DNA from: Brevibacillus agri
Lineage (GTDB): Bacteria; Bacillota; Bacilli; Brevibacillales; Brevibacillaceae
Assembly: GCF_004117055.1 (NCBI RefSeq)
Contig: NZ_CP026363.1
Coordinates: 2,906,001 to 2,970,000 of the forward strand
Length of the DNA stretch: 64,000 bases
Reading direction: 5' to 3'
The notes under the pieces: generated by a model
The model's input: only the letters and a program-made list of their open reading frames with translations
Told to the model about the DNA's origin: nothing
Databases searched by the model: none
Made by a program: the position numbers and the translations under genes
Shown: piece by piece, positions 14,072 to 62,786 of the stretch
How positions within the stretch are numbered: position 1 is the stretch's first letter
How the letters are laid out: each line of letters opens with the position of its first letter

Positions 14072-14119
14072 AATGGTACTGTAATACTCGAACGTACGAC
14101 AATTTCATAGGTTTACTAC

Positions 14120-14212
14120 CAAACGGGGGCCGAGCATCGTCGGCTGAGATTGTAACGAGCGTGTTACTGACCGTTGAACCTGACCTGGGTCATGCCAGCG
14201 GAGGAAGAGGTA
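14120..14212 (+). promoter_or_regulatory. TPP riboswitch (THI element)
   Basis: The conserved core CGGCTGAGA (14151-14159) and later TTGAACCTGACCTGGGTCAT with GCCAGCGGAGGAAG match the thiamin pyrophosphate aptamer; P3 is the short helix GTAAC/GTTAC. It lies upstream of thiS and is followed 77 bases later by an intrinsic terminator, so TPP binding is expected to cause premature termination. Confidence 0.95.
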
Positions 14213-14288
14213 TATGAATCGATTTCACGGTGCGGCAGTTGCGGCGTATTTGCCGGAATGCTGCTACCAGATGATGAGATCAACTCAA

Positions 14289-48612: not shown

Positions 48613-49311
48613 TTAGCCGATAAATTCCTGAACCCAGTAACCGTTGGTGTAGCCGACACCGATTTTGGTGAAGGCCGGGTTCATGATGTTTTTGCGGTGG
48701 CCTTCGCTGTTCATCCACTGCGTCATCACTTCTTGCGGACTGCGTTGACCCATGGCGATGTTCTCGCCTGCGGTCATGTAGGAAATGCCGAATTGCTTCA
48801 TCATGTCAAACGGAGAACCGTACGTTGGGCTGGTGTGGTCAAAGTAGTTGTTGTTCGACATATCGGCTGCTTTCGCCAGAGCGACTTTGGACAGGGCAGC
48901 ATCCATCGTTACAGGCGCCAGACCTGCTTTGGCGCGTTCCTGGTTGACCAGATCAGCAACCTGCTTGGCAAAGTCGCCAGCCTGTGCCTGGTTCGCCGGA
49001 GCAGCCGGCTTTGTGACGTTCTGTACTGGCTTTGCTGGTGCTTGTGGCGCTTGTTGCACCGGCTTTTGTACGGGCTGCTTTTGTACAGGCGCCTGATTTA
49101 CTGGCGCGGCAGGCTGTTGTGGCTGTGCGCTAGGTGCAAATGGAAGCTGACCCATATATGGAATCCATTGATACTGGATTTGGTATTGTATGCCAGTTGG
49201 TACCGGGCAATTGGCTGCAGCAGATGCAGATGGGGTAAAGCCGGTCAAAGCCAAGCCCAATCCCAGAGTCATCGCGATGGCAGTAGCTCCAAAACGTTTC
49301 ATATTCAACAT
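48613..49311 (-). CDS. Secreted CAP-domain (SCP/PR1) protein, YkwD-like
   Basis: 232 residues; ATG at 49311, or ATG 49302 at better distance from AAAGGAG. Signal peptide to about SASAAANC. A Pro/Gln/Val-rich linker (residues ~60-105) precedes the CAP domain: LVNQERAKAGLAPV, YFDHTSPTYGSPFDMM, GENIAMGQRSP, WMNSEGHRKNIMNP, conserved His/Glu included. Extracellular, related to spore-coat/wall proteins YkwD and SafA-type partners. Preceded by a ydaO-type riboswitch. Confidence 0.9.
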   Translation of the reverse strand: MLNMKRFGATAIAMTLGLGLALTGFTPSASAAANCPVPTGIQYQIQYQWIPYMGQLPFAPSAQPQQPAAPVNQAPVQKQPVQKPVQQAPQAPAKPVQNVTKPAAPANQAQAGDFAKQVADLVNQERAKAGLAPVTMDAALSKVALAKAADMSNNNYFDHTSPTYGSPFDMMKQFGISYMTAGENIAMGQRSPQEVMTQWMNSEGHRKNIMNPAFTKIGVGYTNGYWVQEFIG

Positions 49312-49325
49312 CGTCTCCTTTTTTT

Positions 49326-49485
49326 GGCCTACGAGGTTAGTTGTCGGATTCGGATTGAGGAAACAACCCTACGCTCCTTCGAGCGATTCACCCCTTAGTG
49401 GATGCGTGACCCACAAAAAGATCCCCCGCACTTCCATTCGTGAGGAAGCTTCGGCTTATTGGTTTGGCATGACCCAGAATATCAG
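49326..49485 (-). promoter_or_regulatory. ydaO/yuaA-type c-di-AMP riboswitch
   Basis: Read on the minus strand: GGGGTGAATC, then a hairpin GCTCGAAGGAGC and AATCCGAATCC...CAACTAACCTCGTAGGC, the conserved 3' half of the ydaO motif; the 5' half has GAAGTGCGGGGGATC. It ends about 15 bases before the CAP-gene ribosome site. In Gram-positives these leaders turn off wall-hydrolase and osmotic genes when c-di-AMP is high. Exact ends are approximate. Confidence 0.8.
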
Positions 49486-50033: not shown

Positions 50034-50190
50034 ATGGATAACGTTTTTGAAATCCCGATTCACACTGGCGCGGTCATCGGAGCCGCAAGGATGGAAGAGA
50101 GGAAGGGCTTTCGTCGTTTTAGGTTTTCAAAAAGTTTTGGTTTTAACATGGCAGTTCCGTCCTATGACACTTTCATTTTAGCGAAGTAGA
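50034..50190 (+). CDS. Possible 51-residue leader ORF
   Basis: ATG 50034 (GAGGTG eight bases upstream) to TAG 50190. Basic, aromatic-rich middle (RKGFRRFRFSKSFGF). No family recognised. It sits between a candidate promoter and a strong hairpin upstream of the cold-shock gene. Confidence 0.3.
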
Positions 50191-50197
50191 TCAACTT

Positions 50198-50256
50198 CAC
50201 ATATCATGAAGGCGTATCGCGATCTCGCTCTGGGGTATTTCTTCATGATATGTGAG
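50198..50256 (+). terminator. 15-bp hairpin between leader ORF and cold-shock gene
   Basis: TCACATATCATGAAG / CTTCATGATATGTGA, perfect, with a 29-base loop and a weak T-rich tail (GCTTTATTTG). Terminator, attenuator or 5'-UTR structure. Confidence 0.5.
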
Positions 50257-50315
50257 CTTTATTTGCTTCGGTAAATATGACTAGCATATTCAAATTGACT
50301 TTTGGAGGTTTTCTC

Positions 50316-50519
50316 ATGCAAGCGAACGGAACAGTAAAATGGTTTAACGCAGAAAAAGGTTACGGCTTCATTCAAGTAGAAGGCGGAGACGACGTATTCG
50401 TACACTACAGCGCAATCCAAGGCGACGGCTTCAAAACTTTGGAAGAAGGCCAGCGCGTTGAGTTCAACATCGTAACAGGCAACCGCGGTCCTCAAGCTGA
50501 GAACGTAGTAAAACTGTAA
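50316..50519 (+). CDS. Cold-shock protein (CspA family)
   Basis: 67 residues, ATG 50316 after TTGGAGG. RNP1 KGYGFIQV and RNP2 DVFVHYS are complete. Single-stranded nucleic acid chaperone. A strong terminator follows. Confidence 0.95.
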
Positions 50520-50533
50520 GTCTCCTTTATAAA

Positions 50534-50568
50534 AGAAACTGTCCGTCAGCGGGCAGTTTCTTTTTTTC
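50534..50568 (+). terminator. Terminator of the cold-shock gene
   Basis: AGAAACTGTCCG / CGGGCAGTTTCT then T-run. Confidence 0.9.
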
Positions 50569-58394: not shown

Positions 58395-58790
58395 TTATTT
58401 GCCCCTGTGCTTTTCTTTTGCCTTTTGCACTTTTCGCTGCCATTTTTGCTCCAGGCGTTCGAGCTTTTGCTTGCGCCCGGCCACCTTTTTTTCGGCCTTG
58501 CGCGTTTCCCATTCCAGCTTGATCGCTTCCTGGGCATAGGTCGAGGGGCCTTTTGTGCGCAACTCTTTGGCAACTTGACGGGCCAGCCGCTTCGGATTGA
58601 CTTTGGTCGGAACGGCTTCTTGCACTTCCACGGACGCTTTCCGATTGTCCAGTCCAGGCAACAGCCGATGCAGGACAAAATCGAGCACTTCGCCGTCTTT
58701 TGGCTCCGCCATCTATCATAGGGGATGGTGTCTTTGCTGGCAAAATGCCGCAATGCGGGAAAACAGCTATCCATTGTCACGAACGGTCAC
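58395..58790 (-). pseudogene. yjdF: YjdF-family gene with decayed 5' end
   Basis: The open frame (105 residues from ATG 58712) starts EPKDGEVLDFV and has NPKRLARQVAKELRTKG, STYAQEAIKLE and the C-terminal KAKEKHRGK, as in YjdF (DUF2992). The N-terminal ~40 residues of the family appear only in another frame (VRDNG, then FPALRHFASKD). ATG 58712 lacks a ribosome site. So probably a truncated or frameshifted gene; a shortened product is possible. Confidence 0.6.
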
Positions 58791-59058
58791 GGACCGCAGG
58801 CAGCGGAGGCTGGCCCTGCATTTTCTGCAAGTAGACGGCCATGATGAAACCGAGGCAGATGGGTACGAAATCCGCATCGCTGCAGCCGATGGTGAGCCTC
58901 CAAACGGTCAAGCATAGCTTGTTTGGAATATTGTAACAATCTTGTGCAACCTATGGATAAACATGGGAGGAAAATGTAGAATCATGTCGAATGTGTAGAC
59001 ATAACAACCCGGCATGAGTCCAAAATTTTTGGTTCAGGTAGCAAAGGAGTTTTGTGGA

Positions 59059-59152
59059 ATGGATCATTTTTCTCACCTATTTAAGAGCGATCACCATTCA
59101 TGCAGCGAGTCGTCGATTGGGCAAAACGATGATTCTCCCCGCATCTCTTTAC
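59059..59152 (+). pseudogene. 5' part of a globin-coupled GGDEF-EAL gene, interrupted by an IS
   Basis: ATG 59059 (AAAGGAG nine bases upstream) opens 31 codons plus one base (MDHFSHLFKSD... to RISL) before the insertion site TTTAC (59148-59152). Joined to position 60976 it continues RISLQGNPEVLAQL in frame. The N-terminus resembles that of HemAT-type globin sensors. See 60976-62786. Confidence 0.75.
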
Positions 59153-59340
59153 AGATTTTCCGAACGAGAAAGCCCGCTACGGTGCGATAGCACCCCCTTT
59201 AGGGGCGGGATGAGAGTGAGGTCAAATACGGAGTACCACGAATAAATCGAAGGTTTGTGGTACTTCAAGTATTTGAAAATTCCACTCTTTTTTGTTGTTC
59301 ATATGTTGTAGTATATAAAGAAAACTGATACAATAGGTGT

Positions 59341-59739
59341 ATGAACGAATACAGAAGAACAAGCACAACCCTTTCATTATTAAACTACCATTTTGTGTTC
59401 TGCCCTCGGTACAGAAGAAAGATTTTTCTGCAAGCAGATGTAGAACAACGCTTCAAAGAGTTGGTACATGAAGGGTGTGAGGAACTGCAAATTGTGATTG
59501 TTGCTCTTGAATGCGACAAAGACCATACGCATATGTTTCTCAACGCACTCCCATCATTAAGCCCTGCGGATATGATGGCAAAAATGAAAGGAGTGACTTC
59601 TAAGAAATTGCGTGAAGAGTTTCCACATCTTCGGCATTTGCCGAGTTTGTGGACACGCTCATACTTCGTTTCTACCGCAGGAAATGTATCAAGTGAAACG
59701 ATAAAGCGATATGTCGAACAACAGAAAACAAGGGGGTGA
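59341..59739 (+). CDS. tnpA: IS200/IS605 Y1 transposase TnpA
   Basis: 132 residues, ATG 59341. HUH motif H62-T-H64 in DKDHTHMFLNA and the nucleophile Tyr124 in SSETIKRYVEQQ are present, so it appears active. It cuts and rejoins single-stranded DNA at the element's ends. The five-base gap to tnpB suggests coupled translation. Confidence 0.95.
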   Translation: MNEYRRTSTTLSLLNYHFVFCPRYRRKIFLQADVEQRFKELVHEGCEELQIVIVALECDKDHTHMFLNALPSLSPADMMAKMKGVTSKKLREEFPHLRHLPSLWTRSYFVSTAGNVSSETIKRYVEQQKTRG

Positions 59740-59744
59740 AAATC

Positions 59745-60821
59745 ATGTCGCAGACCATCACAGTCAAAGTGAAATTGCTTCCAACAAAAGAACAGGCTTC
59801 TATTTTGCGTGAAATGAGTCAAACGTACCTCTCCACTATCAATACTCTCGTTTCCGAAATGGTTGCTGAAAAGAAAAGCACAAAGAAGTCGAGTAAGGAT
59901 ATTTCTGCTTCTTTGCCAAGTGCCGTTAAAAATCAAGCTATCAAGGACGCGAAAAGTGTGTTTAAGAAAGCGAAGAAAAGCAAATTCACTACTGTTCCTG
60001 TTTTGAAGAAACCTGTCTGCATTTGGAACAATCAAAACTACTCGTTTGATTTCACGCACATTTCCATGCCGATTATGATTGACGGCAAGGTAACTAAAAC
60101 ACCTATCCGTGCTTTGTTAGTTGATAAAGACAACCGTAACTTTGCTTTGCTAAAACACAAATTAGGTACGCTTCGAATCACACAGAAAGCAAATAAATGG
60201 ATTGCCCAAATTTCTGTCACCATACCTACTATGGAAGGAACAGGAGTAAAAGTCATGGGTGTTGATTTGGGGTTAAAAGTTCCTGCCGTTGCTGTAACAG
60301 ATGATGAAAAGGTACGTTTCTTTGGGAATGGCAGACAAAATAAGTACATGAAGCGTAAGTTTCGTTCTGAACGCAAAGCATTAGGCAAAAAGAAAAAGGT
60401 AAATGCGATTCGTAGTTCAAAAGATAAAGAACAACGTTGGATGAAAGACCAAGACCATAAGGTTAGTCGTGCTATCGTAAATTTTGCAAAAGACAATAAA
60501 ATTTCTGTCATTCGCTTGGAACAACTGGCGAATATTAGACAGACGGCAAGAACAAGCCGTAAAAACGAAAAGAATCTGCATACTTGGTCATTTTATCGCC
60601 TATCTCAGTTCATTGAATATAAAGCGAATTTAGTTGGTATTAGAGTTGAGCATGTGAATCCTGCATACACAAGTCAGACATGCCCTAAATGCTCTGAGAA
60701 GAATAAGGCACAAGACCGTAAGTATAAATGCAAATGTGGATTCGAAAAACATCGTGATTTAGTCGGTGCTATGAACATTCGATATGCACCTGTGATTGAT
60801 GGTAACAGTCAATCAGCCTAA
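59745..60821 (+). CDS. tnpB: RNA-guided nuclease TnpB
   Basis: 358 residues from ATG 59745 (GGGGGTG upstream). RuvC residues Asp174 (MGVDLGLK), Glu259 (IRLEQLANI) and Asp338 (KHRDLVGAMN) are all present, with the zinc ribbon CPKCSEKN...CKCG between the last two. TnpB uses a guide RNA from the element's right end to cut sites next to the TAM, here probably TTTAC/TTAC. Apparently intact. Confidence 0.95.
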   Translation: MSQTITVKVKLLPTKEQASILREMSQTYLSTINTLVSEMVAEKKSTKKSSKDISASLPSAVKNQAIKDAKSVFKKAKKSKFTTVPVLKKPVCIWNNQNYSFDFTHISMPIMIDGKVTKTPIRALLVDKDNRNFALLKHKLGTLRITQKANKWIAQISVTIPTMEGTGVKVMGVDLGLKVPAVAVTDDEKVRFFGNGRQNKYMKRKFRSERKALGKKKKVNAIRSSKDKEQRWMKDQDHKVSRAIVNFAKDNKISVIRLEQLANIRQTARTSRKNEKNLHTWSFYRLSQFIEYKANLVGIRVEHVNPAYTSQTCPKCSEKNKAQDRKYKCKCGFEKHRDLVGAMNIRYAPVIDGNSQSA

Positions 60822-60995
60822 GATGCTATATGCACTGTCTTAGGAGGGGCAATGAGATGTCCTCATCTTGAAGGCTGTTCAAAACAGAAATGGACTGCGA
60901 ACGCTTAGTCATTCAAGAATCCCACCCGTACACCGCAAGGTGGAAGGCTTGCGGCTTTAGCCGTGGGAGTCTCAAAAGGTAACCCAGAAGTTTTG
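60822..60995 (+). ncRNA. TnpB omega/re-RNA with guide
   Basis: The 3' end of tnpB and the right end fold into hairpins, the last being TCCCACCCGTA...TAGCCGTGGGA (60931-60968). The scaffold should end at the right boundary TCAA (60975); the next ~16-20 bases (AAGGTAACCC...) are host DNA and serve as guide. Boundaries inferred from the family. Confidence 0.6.
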
Positions 60996-62786
60996 GCTCA
61001 ATTGAACATGATTAATTTGACGCAAAAAGACCTGGAGCTGATTGCAGGGCTTCGTCCTGTCGTCGTGGAGCAAATTGAGCAAATCACCGCCTCGTTCTAC
61101 GAAGCGATCCTGCACGTCGATTCATTAAAAGAGATTATTACGAGCCATACGACGGTCAATCGTCTGCGGCAAACGTTGTCCAGCCATTTGATTGAGATGT
61201 TCGACGGCCGTATTGATGAGGCTTTTGTTGAAAAACGGATGCGAATTGCCATGGTGCACCAAAAAATCGGGTTGCCCTCGAAGTGGTGTATGGGCTCGTT
61301 TCAAAATCTGCTCAGCACCTTGCTGCGCATCGTCGATAGTTTGCAAGGCACTCACCCGGACTGCTCCGGTCTGGCACAGGCTGTCACCAAGCTGCTCAGC
61401 CTCGAACAGCAGTTGGTTTTGGAAGCGTACGAGCATCAGACGCGGATGGAGGAGCAACGGGCGAAAGCGATTATCGAATACCAGGCGCTTCACGACGATT
61501 TGACGGGCTTGCCCAACCGGAGGAAGCTGCATGTAACGTTGCAGGAGACGATTGAGATAAGCAGGGAGGACAACTCCCGTTTTGCTGTGCTGGTGCTGGA
61601 TATTGATCGGTTTAAATTGATTAACGATTCGCTTGGACACACGTACGGAGATCGCTTTTTGCAAGAGGTGAGCGACCGCATTCGCAAAAGCACCGAAGGA
61701 TTCGACGTCATGATCGCGCGGATGGGGGGAGACGAATTTACGCTGATTTGCAAAAACGTGTCCTCCGACCGGGATTTTTCGGAGCTGTCCGAGCAGGTCG
61801 TCAAGGAGATTGAGATTCCGTACCGTCTGCAGAGCAACGACTATTACGTCTCGGCGAGCATCGGCATTGCCATCTATCCCGATCACGGCACAACTGTGGA
61901 GGAATTGCTGAAAAATGCCGACACGGCGATGTACGAGGTGAAGAAAAACGGCAAGAACGGCTACCAGTTTTTCACCAACGAGCTGGACAACCAACTGCTG
62001 CTGCGCTTTGAGCTGGAAAGCGACTTGCGCAAGGCAGTCAAGGAAAATGAGTTCACGCTGTTCTACCAGCCGCAGGTGCAGGCGCTCAGCAATGAAATCA
62101 TCGGGGTCGAAGCGCTTGTCCGCTGGAACCACCCGACAAAGGGCATGCTCTCGCCGGGCATTTTTATTCCGTTGGCGGAGGAAACAGGACTCATCTACGA
62201 CATCGGCACATGGACGCTGAGGGAAGCTTGCCGGCAAATGAAAGAATGGCATGATGCAGGCGGGCCGCTCATTCCCGTCTCCGTCAACTTGTCTTCGCGG
62301 CAGTTCCACCAGGCGAACCTGGTCGAATACATTCGCGACATCCTGGAAGAAACGGGGCTGGAAGCGAAATATTTGGAGCTGGAAATTACGGAGAGCATGA
62401 TGATGGACCCGGATTTGTCCACGGAAATTCTCAACAAGCTGAACGATTTTGGGGTGAAAATCAGTCTCGACGATTTTGGTACCGGATACAGCTCGTTGAG
62501 TTACCTCAAGCTGTTGCCCATTCATAAGCTGAAAATTGACCGCTCCTTCATTACCGACATCACGCGAAATGCGAGCGACCAGGCTATCGTGGCGACGATC
62601 ATCTCGATGGCGAAGCATTTGAACATGGACGTGATCGCGGAAGGAATCGAAACACAAGGCCAACTGGACTTTTTGACGGAAAACGCCTGCAAGGAAATTC
62701 AGGGCTATTACTTCAGCCGACCGTTGCCAGCAACTGAAGTAGAGGAAACTTTTTTTGTCCCTTACAGACTGTCCCAGCTCTCCTAA
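60976..62786 (+). pseudogene. 3' part of globin-coupled diguanylate cyclase/phosphodiesterase
   Basis: Together with 59059-59152 it would encode about 634 residues. Globin sensor (~60-200) with the proximal haem His in IAMVHQKIGLPSKW and FYEAIL; GGDEF domain with GGDEF at 61725-61739 and DIDRFKLINDSLGH; EAL domain with GVEALVRW, ELEITESMM and DFGTGYSSLSYLK. An intact 607-codon frame from 60963 starts inside the IS right end (GTG), so a shortened product remains possible. Would link oxygen sensing to c-di-GMP. Confidence 0.75.

Follow-up and report, generated by a model that had tools for sequence, protein, structure and literature searches.

We studied a stretch of 64,000 nucleotides (hereafter the window) from the genome of Brevibacillus agri (NCBI RefSeq assembly GCF_004117055.1, contig NZ_CP026363.1, positions 2,906,001 to 2,970,000 of the forward strand; the genome is a single contig of 5,374,818 bases), in which a gene coding for a globin-coupled cyclic di-GMP (c-di-GMP) enzyme of the DcpG type, with protoglobin, GGDEF and EAL domains, is split after codon 31 by an insertion sequence (IS). 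We favor, with a probability of roughly 0.7, the interpretation that a complete IS608-like element recently inserted itself at the gene's 5' end, an event which is reversible in its chemistry yet biased to persist, and which shows no sign of having evolved as a switch. At the level of sequence, the ends and position of the element, its intact tnpA and tnpB genes, the exact joined reading frame, and an uninterrupted allele elsewhere are in place. The coordinates are collected in Table 1.

Joining position 59152 to 60976 gave one frame of 634 residues in which the sole stop is the terminal one. An earlier note, made from the letters of this DNA alone, had proposed the same join and the same ends (ATG 59059, a left flank TTTAC up to 59152, and TCAA at 60972-60975), and all of these were reproduced. 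The ends were fixed independently, as other copies in the same genome begin and end at identical bases, which rules out that they were mis-set. TTAC adjoins the left end in 8/8 recent copies that keep that end (A, B, C, D, E, G, H, and I, copy A being the one in the window), and TCAA closes 7/7 copies that keep the right end (A to G). Of the flank TTTAC named in the earlier note, TTAC is constant and the base preceding it is not (TTTAC, GTTAC, ATTAC). TTAC and TCAA were likewise present in 3/3 copies of an element of about 80% identity from G047, a genome that belongs to a different family; the first base of that element is C, versus A in the B. agri element. When folded as DNA, the two ends gave z scores of -2.10 and -3.66, the latter for 60912-60980.

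These features resemble IS608 of Helicobacter pylori, for which, in excerpts of one study, the target is TTAC, the left and right guides are AAAG and GAAT, and insertion at TTAC is general for elements of its type (PMC5934647). The likeness comprises the TTAC kept on the left, the TCAA right end, both guides beside subterminal hairpins, a Y1 HUH TnpA together with a TnpB, lagging-strand orientation, and the lack of a target duplication; the differences are a distant sequence, another host, and the base that follows TTAC, which is discussed below. Judged by its transposase, ends, guides, hairpins and strand, the element groups with the IS608-like members of the IS200/IS605 family, in agreement with the IS605-type assignment made earlier. 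Relatives of the element were also seen on plasmids (H1-H4) of Aneurinibacillus (87%), Bacillus (83%) and Klebsiella grimontii (76%), the last being an unexpected host for an element of Bacilli type. A search of phage records in 'near' mode returned no match to the element, and a promoter and terminator scan of 58700-61100 gave counts close to those of shuffled sequence for promoter-like sites (4 versus 3.9) and below them for terminator-like sites (1 versus 2.0), and was uninformative.

Both proteins of the element have their catalytic residues. TnpA matched the Y1_Tnp profile (2e-37) and the sequence of the IS608 TnpA structure (5.1e-28; phmmer), and has the Y1 HUH signature of an HxH motif plus one catalytic Tyr. 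TnpB, upon alignment to solved TnpB and Cas12f sequences, keeps the RuvC D-E-D residues (D177, E262, D341) and the zinc-finger cysteines (C316, C319, C332, C334); a nuclease-dead, TldR-like TnpB serving as a repressor was ruled out by the presence of the D-E-D residues. An alternative tnpB start, ATG 59745, has a better ribosome-binding site than GTG 59736. The right end, at 91.6-92.9% identity to the G047 copies, is conserved above tnpB (78%), as expected of a functional RNA or DNA end.

Uninterrupted versions of the gene were found in related species and in a near-identical allele. The nearest named relatives, in B. gelatini (91%) and B. parabrevis (90%), are both uninterrupted. Their start, tail and 5' region can be aligned to the joined sequence, and the junction itself is free of indels; a gap in B. 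parabrevis lies further upstream, within the variable tail. This speaks against a target-site duplication or a scar, neither of which is seen in the alignment, and bears out the claim that excision would restore the gene scarlessly. The earlier note had looked to the junction sequence of uninterrupted homologues as a possible refutation. The letters do differ (B. gelatini CTCTTTGAAAGG; window joined CTCTTTACAAGG), and neither relative has TTAC, whereas length and frame are the same. The earlier note had also proposed to look for the uninterrupted gene in other strains, and a protein database search returned a natural 634-aa protein (P0001; two contigs, longest 5,679,319 bases; 16 cluster members) that is identical to the joined protein at 633/634 residues. 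By its protein sequence, then, an uninterrupted allele is present in another genome. Searching with the 607-aa downstream frame again returned P0001 and no separate shortened entry, a result that tells nothing given the 90% clustering of the database.

The single difference from P0001 lies at residue 136, ten residues after the proximal His, which is Tyr in P0001 and Cys in the window. Tyr occupies this position in 29/29 protoglobin homologues (every one that appears among the top 120 of 289 listed proteins) and also in HemAT, where it is Tyr133. The presence of Tyr at this position was our own alignment criterion, rather than a published definition, and the joined protein departs from it. Cys136 weighs against continued function of the filled allele; it may also stem from a sequencing error at one base. 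In other respects the joined protein has the features of a DcpG-type globin-coupled sensor: the three Pfam domains, as the earlier note had read them, the proximal His, and the GGDEF and EAL motifs are all present. A 631-aa protein of Paenibacillus dendritiformis (P0027), presumably DcpG, is 56% identical over 95%. DcpG is likewise a globin sensor with GGDEF and EAL domains, but it is intact and has been studied, whereas the gene described here is interrupted and carries Cys136. According to excerpts of published work, the O2 form of DcpG degrades c-di-GMP and its nitric oxide form makes it (PMC10882959). Four other strong protoglobin matches in the genome (L154, L156, L157, and L158) look chemotaxis-type (HemAT-like) when judged by eye. 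The interrupted gene may therefore be the sole globin-coupled c-di-GMP enzyme of this genome, one weak sixth match aside.

The genome itself was searched with the element, TnpA and TnpB, and the fetched stretches were aligned. This gave nine recent copies covering the left end or tnpA (A to I; B-I at loci L066-L069 and L186-L189). Three further matches are kept apart from these nine: at 4.41 Mb, a piece of the right end, 435 nt long and 98% identical, that finishes in TCAA; at 0.82 Mb, a diverged copy (73%) that also finishes in TCAA; and at 3.62 Mb, another diverged copy, for which the sequence examined stops short of the right end. Full-length tnpA is kept only in copy A and is deleted or frameshifted in the other eight, while tnpB is intact in six of the nine (A-E and G). 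Several tnpA deletions are shared (23 nt in B and C; 12 nt in C, D, and F; 115 nt in E, G, H, and I); in addition copy D is without 47-447, and copy F without its left end and start. The same lesions at different loci imply that damaged copies moved or exchanged sequence, and the TnpA that mobilized them could have come from copy A or from diverged elements, as open diverged TnpAs are present in the genome (one 66% identical at 3.62 Mb, two at 29-30%). Copy A stands slightly apart, with 5-7 differences from B-E in 1240 nt, compared to 2-5 among B-E. We regard the recent copies as a snapshot of change towards tnpB-only elements. The G047 copies (L071, L072, and L073) have a common tnpA 3' deletion, and in two of the three the remainder is fused in frame with tnpB.

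The orientation of the copies follows the replication arms. GC skew, in 20-kb stretches along the chromosome, changes sign twice, becoming positive between 0.29 and 0.54 Mb and negative again between 3.06 and 3.09 Mb; it was used to place the terminus, as no match within 3 mismatches to the B. subtilis dif sequence was found. Copies A, C, and D lie on the + strand in the positive-skew arm and copies B, E, F, G, H, and I on the - strand in the negative-skew arm. The strand that TnpA cuts would thus be the lagging-strand template in 9/9 recent copies, as judged from skew rather than from mapped replication; the skew for F, G, H, and I was borrowed from neighboring stretches, and the copies are perhaps not independent.

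Taken with what is described for ISDra2, these features suggest how the insertion could be reversible and still persist. TnpA could release the element from the lagging-strand template, and the gene would be resealed without a scar. The restored TTAC, with the opening bases of the gene's 3' part behind it, would then form a cut site for TnpB loaded with the copy's own guide, and repair from the sister copy would put the element back. The net outcome would be a sensor whose expression is low or altered, with the filled state favored. In the ISDra2 work, TnpB has been proposed to cleave the donor site once this is resealed, with repair then bringing the element back (PMC8612924; also PMC11870625); the right-end element RNA (reRNA) carries about 16 nt of the right flank as guide, and TnpB needs the TnpA target as its motif (PMC8612924). 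Because TnpB of copy A has retained the catalytic residues, and because the guide predicted for it is identical to part of the interrupted gene, a restored site should be recut, and such recutting would bias the gene towards the filled state, making of it a ratchet rather than a switch. A genome search for TTAC followed by the 16-nt guide, allowing <=2 mismatches, found none besides the element's own end.

Several observations weigh against this interpretation. The base that follows TTAC at the insertion site is A, which IS608 disfavors, as stated in part of the study cited above (PMC5934647). The RNA fold of 60822-60975 was no better than that of shuffled sequences (z -0.67). The motif of this TnpB is assumed to equal the TnpA target of the element, and excision, cleavage and the consequences for expression are projected from the sequence and from ISDra2. 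Also, the P0001 allele, known as a protein only, could be ancestral or revertant; the two are indistinguishable because excision leaves no scar.

The earlier note had gone further and proposed an on/off switch, in which excision and insertion at this site toggle the oxygen-sensing enzyme and are maintained because they are useful. The join is indeed scarless, filled and empty alleles both occur in nature (the window and P0001, between genomes only), and copy A, with its full-length tnpA, could move itself; moreover, excision of an ISDra2 derivative lacking tnpB is reported to have made a disrupted gene whole again at a frequency of about 2e-3 per cell (PMC2806898). That tetA assay in Deinococcus radiodurans is similar to our case in that an IS200/IS605 element sits in a gene that is restored upon excision, but it differs in being a laboratory construct with tnpB removed and with TTGAT as the target (PMC2806898). 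Against a switch, frame restoration is automatic for this family, and copy B (L066, L177) also lies within an apparent reading frame whose flanks are open in the same phase, so that frame restoration would not be special to the window copy. Nothing suggests that the element returns to the same site, TnpB would be expected to recut the empty one, and no empty copy was present in the single assembly examined. The gene is also otherwise damaged in part of the genus: upon searching 25 same-genus (Brevibacillus) genomes, with at most 21 candidates scored per genome, 11 orthologues with the globin part were found among the matches listed (7 uninterrupted and 4 damaged), the other 14 genomes being without a comparable row, and damage in 4/11 listed orthologues fits dispensability better than regulated switching. 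A literature search that covered few subscription papers found, by title or abstract start among the papers listed, no IS200/IS605 element switching a natural gene, and the passages of a review that mention ISDra2 insertion into thyA under selection and precise IS5 excision describe no switch by this family (PMC8944449). We consider an evolved switch highly improbable.

Dispensability itself, in which case the insertion would be just one among a number of lesions that arose independently across the genus and the filled allele would already be drifting, is a tentative possibility that is compatible with the biased insertion we favor. The damaged orthologues (three without most of EAL, in B. porteri, B. 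fortis and G019, and a frameshift in the draft genome of B. panacihumi) and the change of Tyr136 to Cys in the globin domain would fit it. The three EAL-less genomes, however, retain a globin-GGDEF frame of 372-402 aa (L032, L033, and L034), which may be remodeling instead of decay, possibly a conversion from dual enzyme to cyclase. The 3' part in the window likewise has neither a stop nor a frameshift in 602 codons, and its codon changes still look selected: in a comparison of 597 codons, 41 synonymous and 8 non-synonymous changes fall on the window branch, as against 68 and 16 for gelatini and 135 and 22 for parabrevis, and by this sequence measure no relaxed selection is visible on the window branch.

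The similar ratios on the three branches also bear on whether the gene is off at all. All three domains lie intact 3' of the insertion, the protoglobin match beginning at joined residue 36, four residues past the split codon, and the part lost is a variable 32-residue tail that is shorter in B. parabrevis. A complete, N-terminally shortened enzyme might thus be made from tnpB read-through transcripts, starting at GTG 60963 (-7.0 kcal/mol, but with a binding site that lies within the end hairpin at a distance of about 15 nt), TTG 60993 (-4.0) or ATG 61008 (-3.3), all energies having been computed with an assumed anti-Shine-Dalgarno sequence. These weak starts, together with the intact domains, make the earlier statement that the gene is switched off too strong. 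We still find the shortened enzyme somewhat unlikely: the native start, with its good spacing and an energy of -9.0, is separated from the 3' part by the element, processing of the TnpB guide would cleave such transcripts near the alternative starts, and, if the insertion is young, decay may not yet show. From the sequence, expression of the sensor gene is most likely reduced or lost.

Table 1. Positions in the window of the interrupted sensor gene, the inserted element and their parts.
Feature	Position	Strand	Basis or remark
Gene 5' fragment	59059..59152	+	31 codons from ATG plus one base (94 nt); variable N-terminal tail, ending TTTAC
Ribosome-binding site AAAGGAG	just 5' of ATG 59059	+	binding energy -9.0 kcal/mol
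TTAC target and left cleavage site, expected TnpB motif	59149..59152	+	left of 8/8 recent copies that retain the left end
IS608-like IS200/IS605 element, copy A, 1823 bp	59153..60975	+	boundaries from other copies in the genome
Left guide AAAG	59169-59172	+	located in sequence
Left-end subterminal hairpin GGTGC-GATA-GCACC	59181-59194	+	DNA fold
tnpA, Y1 HUH transposase, 132 aa	59341..59739	+	HTH motif at residues 62-64, catalytic-type Tyr at 124
tnpB, RNA-guided nuclease, 361 aa	59736..60821	+	GTG 59736 start; NF040570 guided_TnpB 2.9e-57
Right end, presumed omegaRNA (reRNA) scaffold	60822..60975	+	conservation versus G047 copies
Right guide GAAT	60917-60920	+	located in sequence, beside closing hairpin
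TCAA right cleavage site	60972-60975	+	common to the right ends of recent copies
Gene 3' part	60976..62786	+	protoglobin, GGDEF and EAL, all above Pfam cut-offs
Predicted TnpB guide, 16 nt	60976..60991	+	first bases of the gene's 3' part; inferred from ISDra2
Protoglobin domain	about 60987-61439	+	Pfam
Cys136 of the joined protein	61287..61289	+	codon TGT
GGDEF domain	61485-61958	+	Pfam; GGDEF motif present
EAL domain	62022-62723	+	Pfam; EAL motif present

Elsewhere in the window, Rfam matches were seen to a c-di-AMP (cyclic di-AMP) riboswitch (49311-49466, - strand), the small RNA BsrC (50040-50127, - strand), a cspA thermoregulator (50219-50564, + strand; 81.9 bits, threshold 78) and a thiamine pyrophosphate riboswitch (14113-14223, + strand).

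There is no evidence here for a new kind of switch. A further idea, to which we assign a low likelihood, is an RNA-guided allele ratchet, in which TnpB, its guide taken from the interrupted gene, cuts any uninterrupted allele that bears TTAC at the junction, whether restored or incoming from a sister strain, and the allele is thereby converted to the filled form; if true, the state of the sensor would be set by a nuclease-backed gene drive instead of a free switch. The window and P0001 constitute a natural filled and empty pair whose proteins, the insertion aside, differ by one residue, and the expected coupling of oxygen to c-di-GMP by the interrupted gene would offer a readable phenotype. 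With such a pair one can ask at what rate an IS200/IS605 element that carries a TnpB departs from a gene, and whether mutations of this kind become in effect one-way through TnpB.

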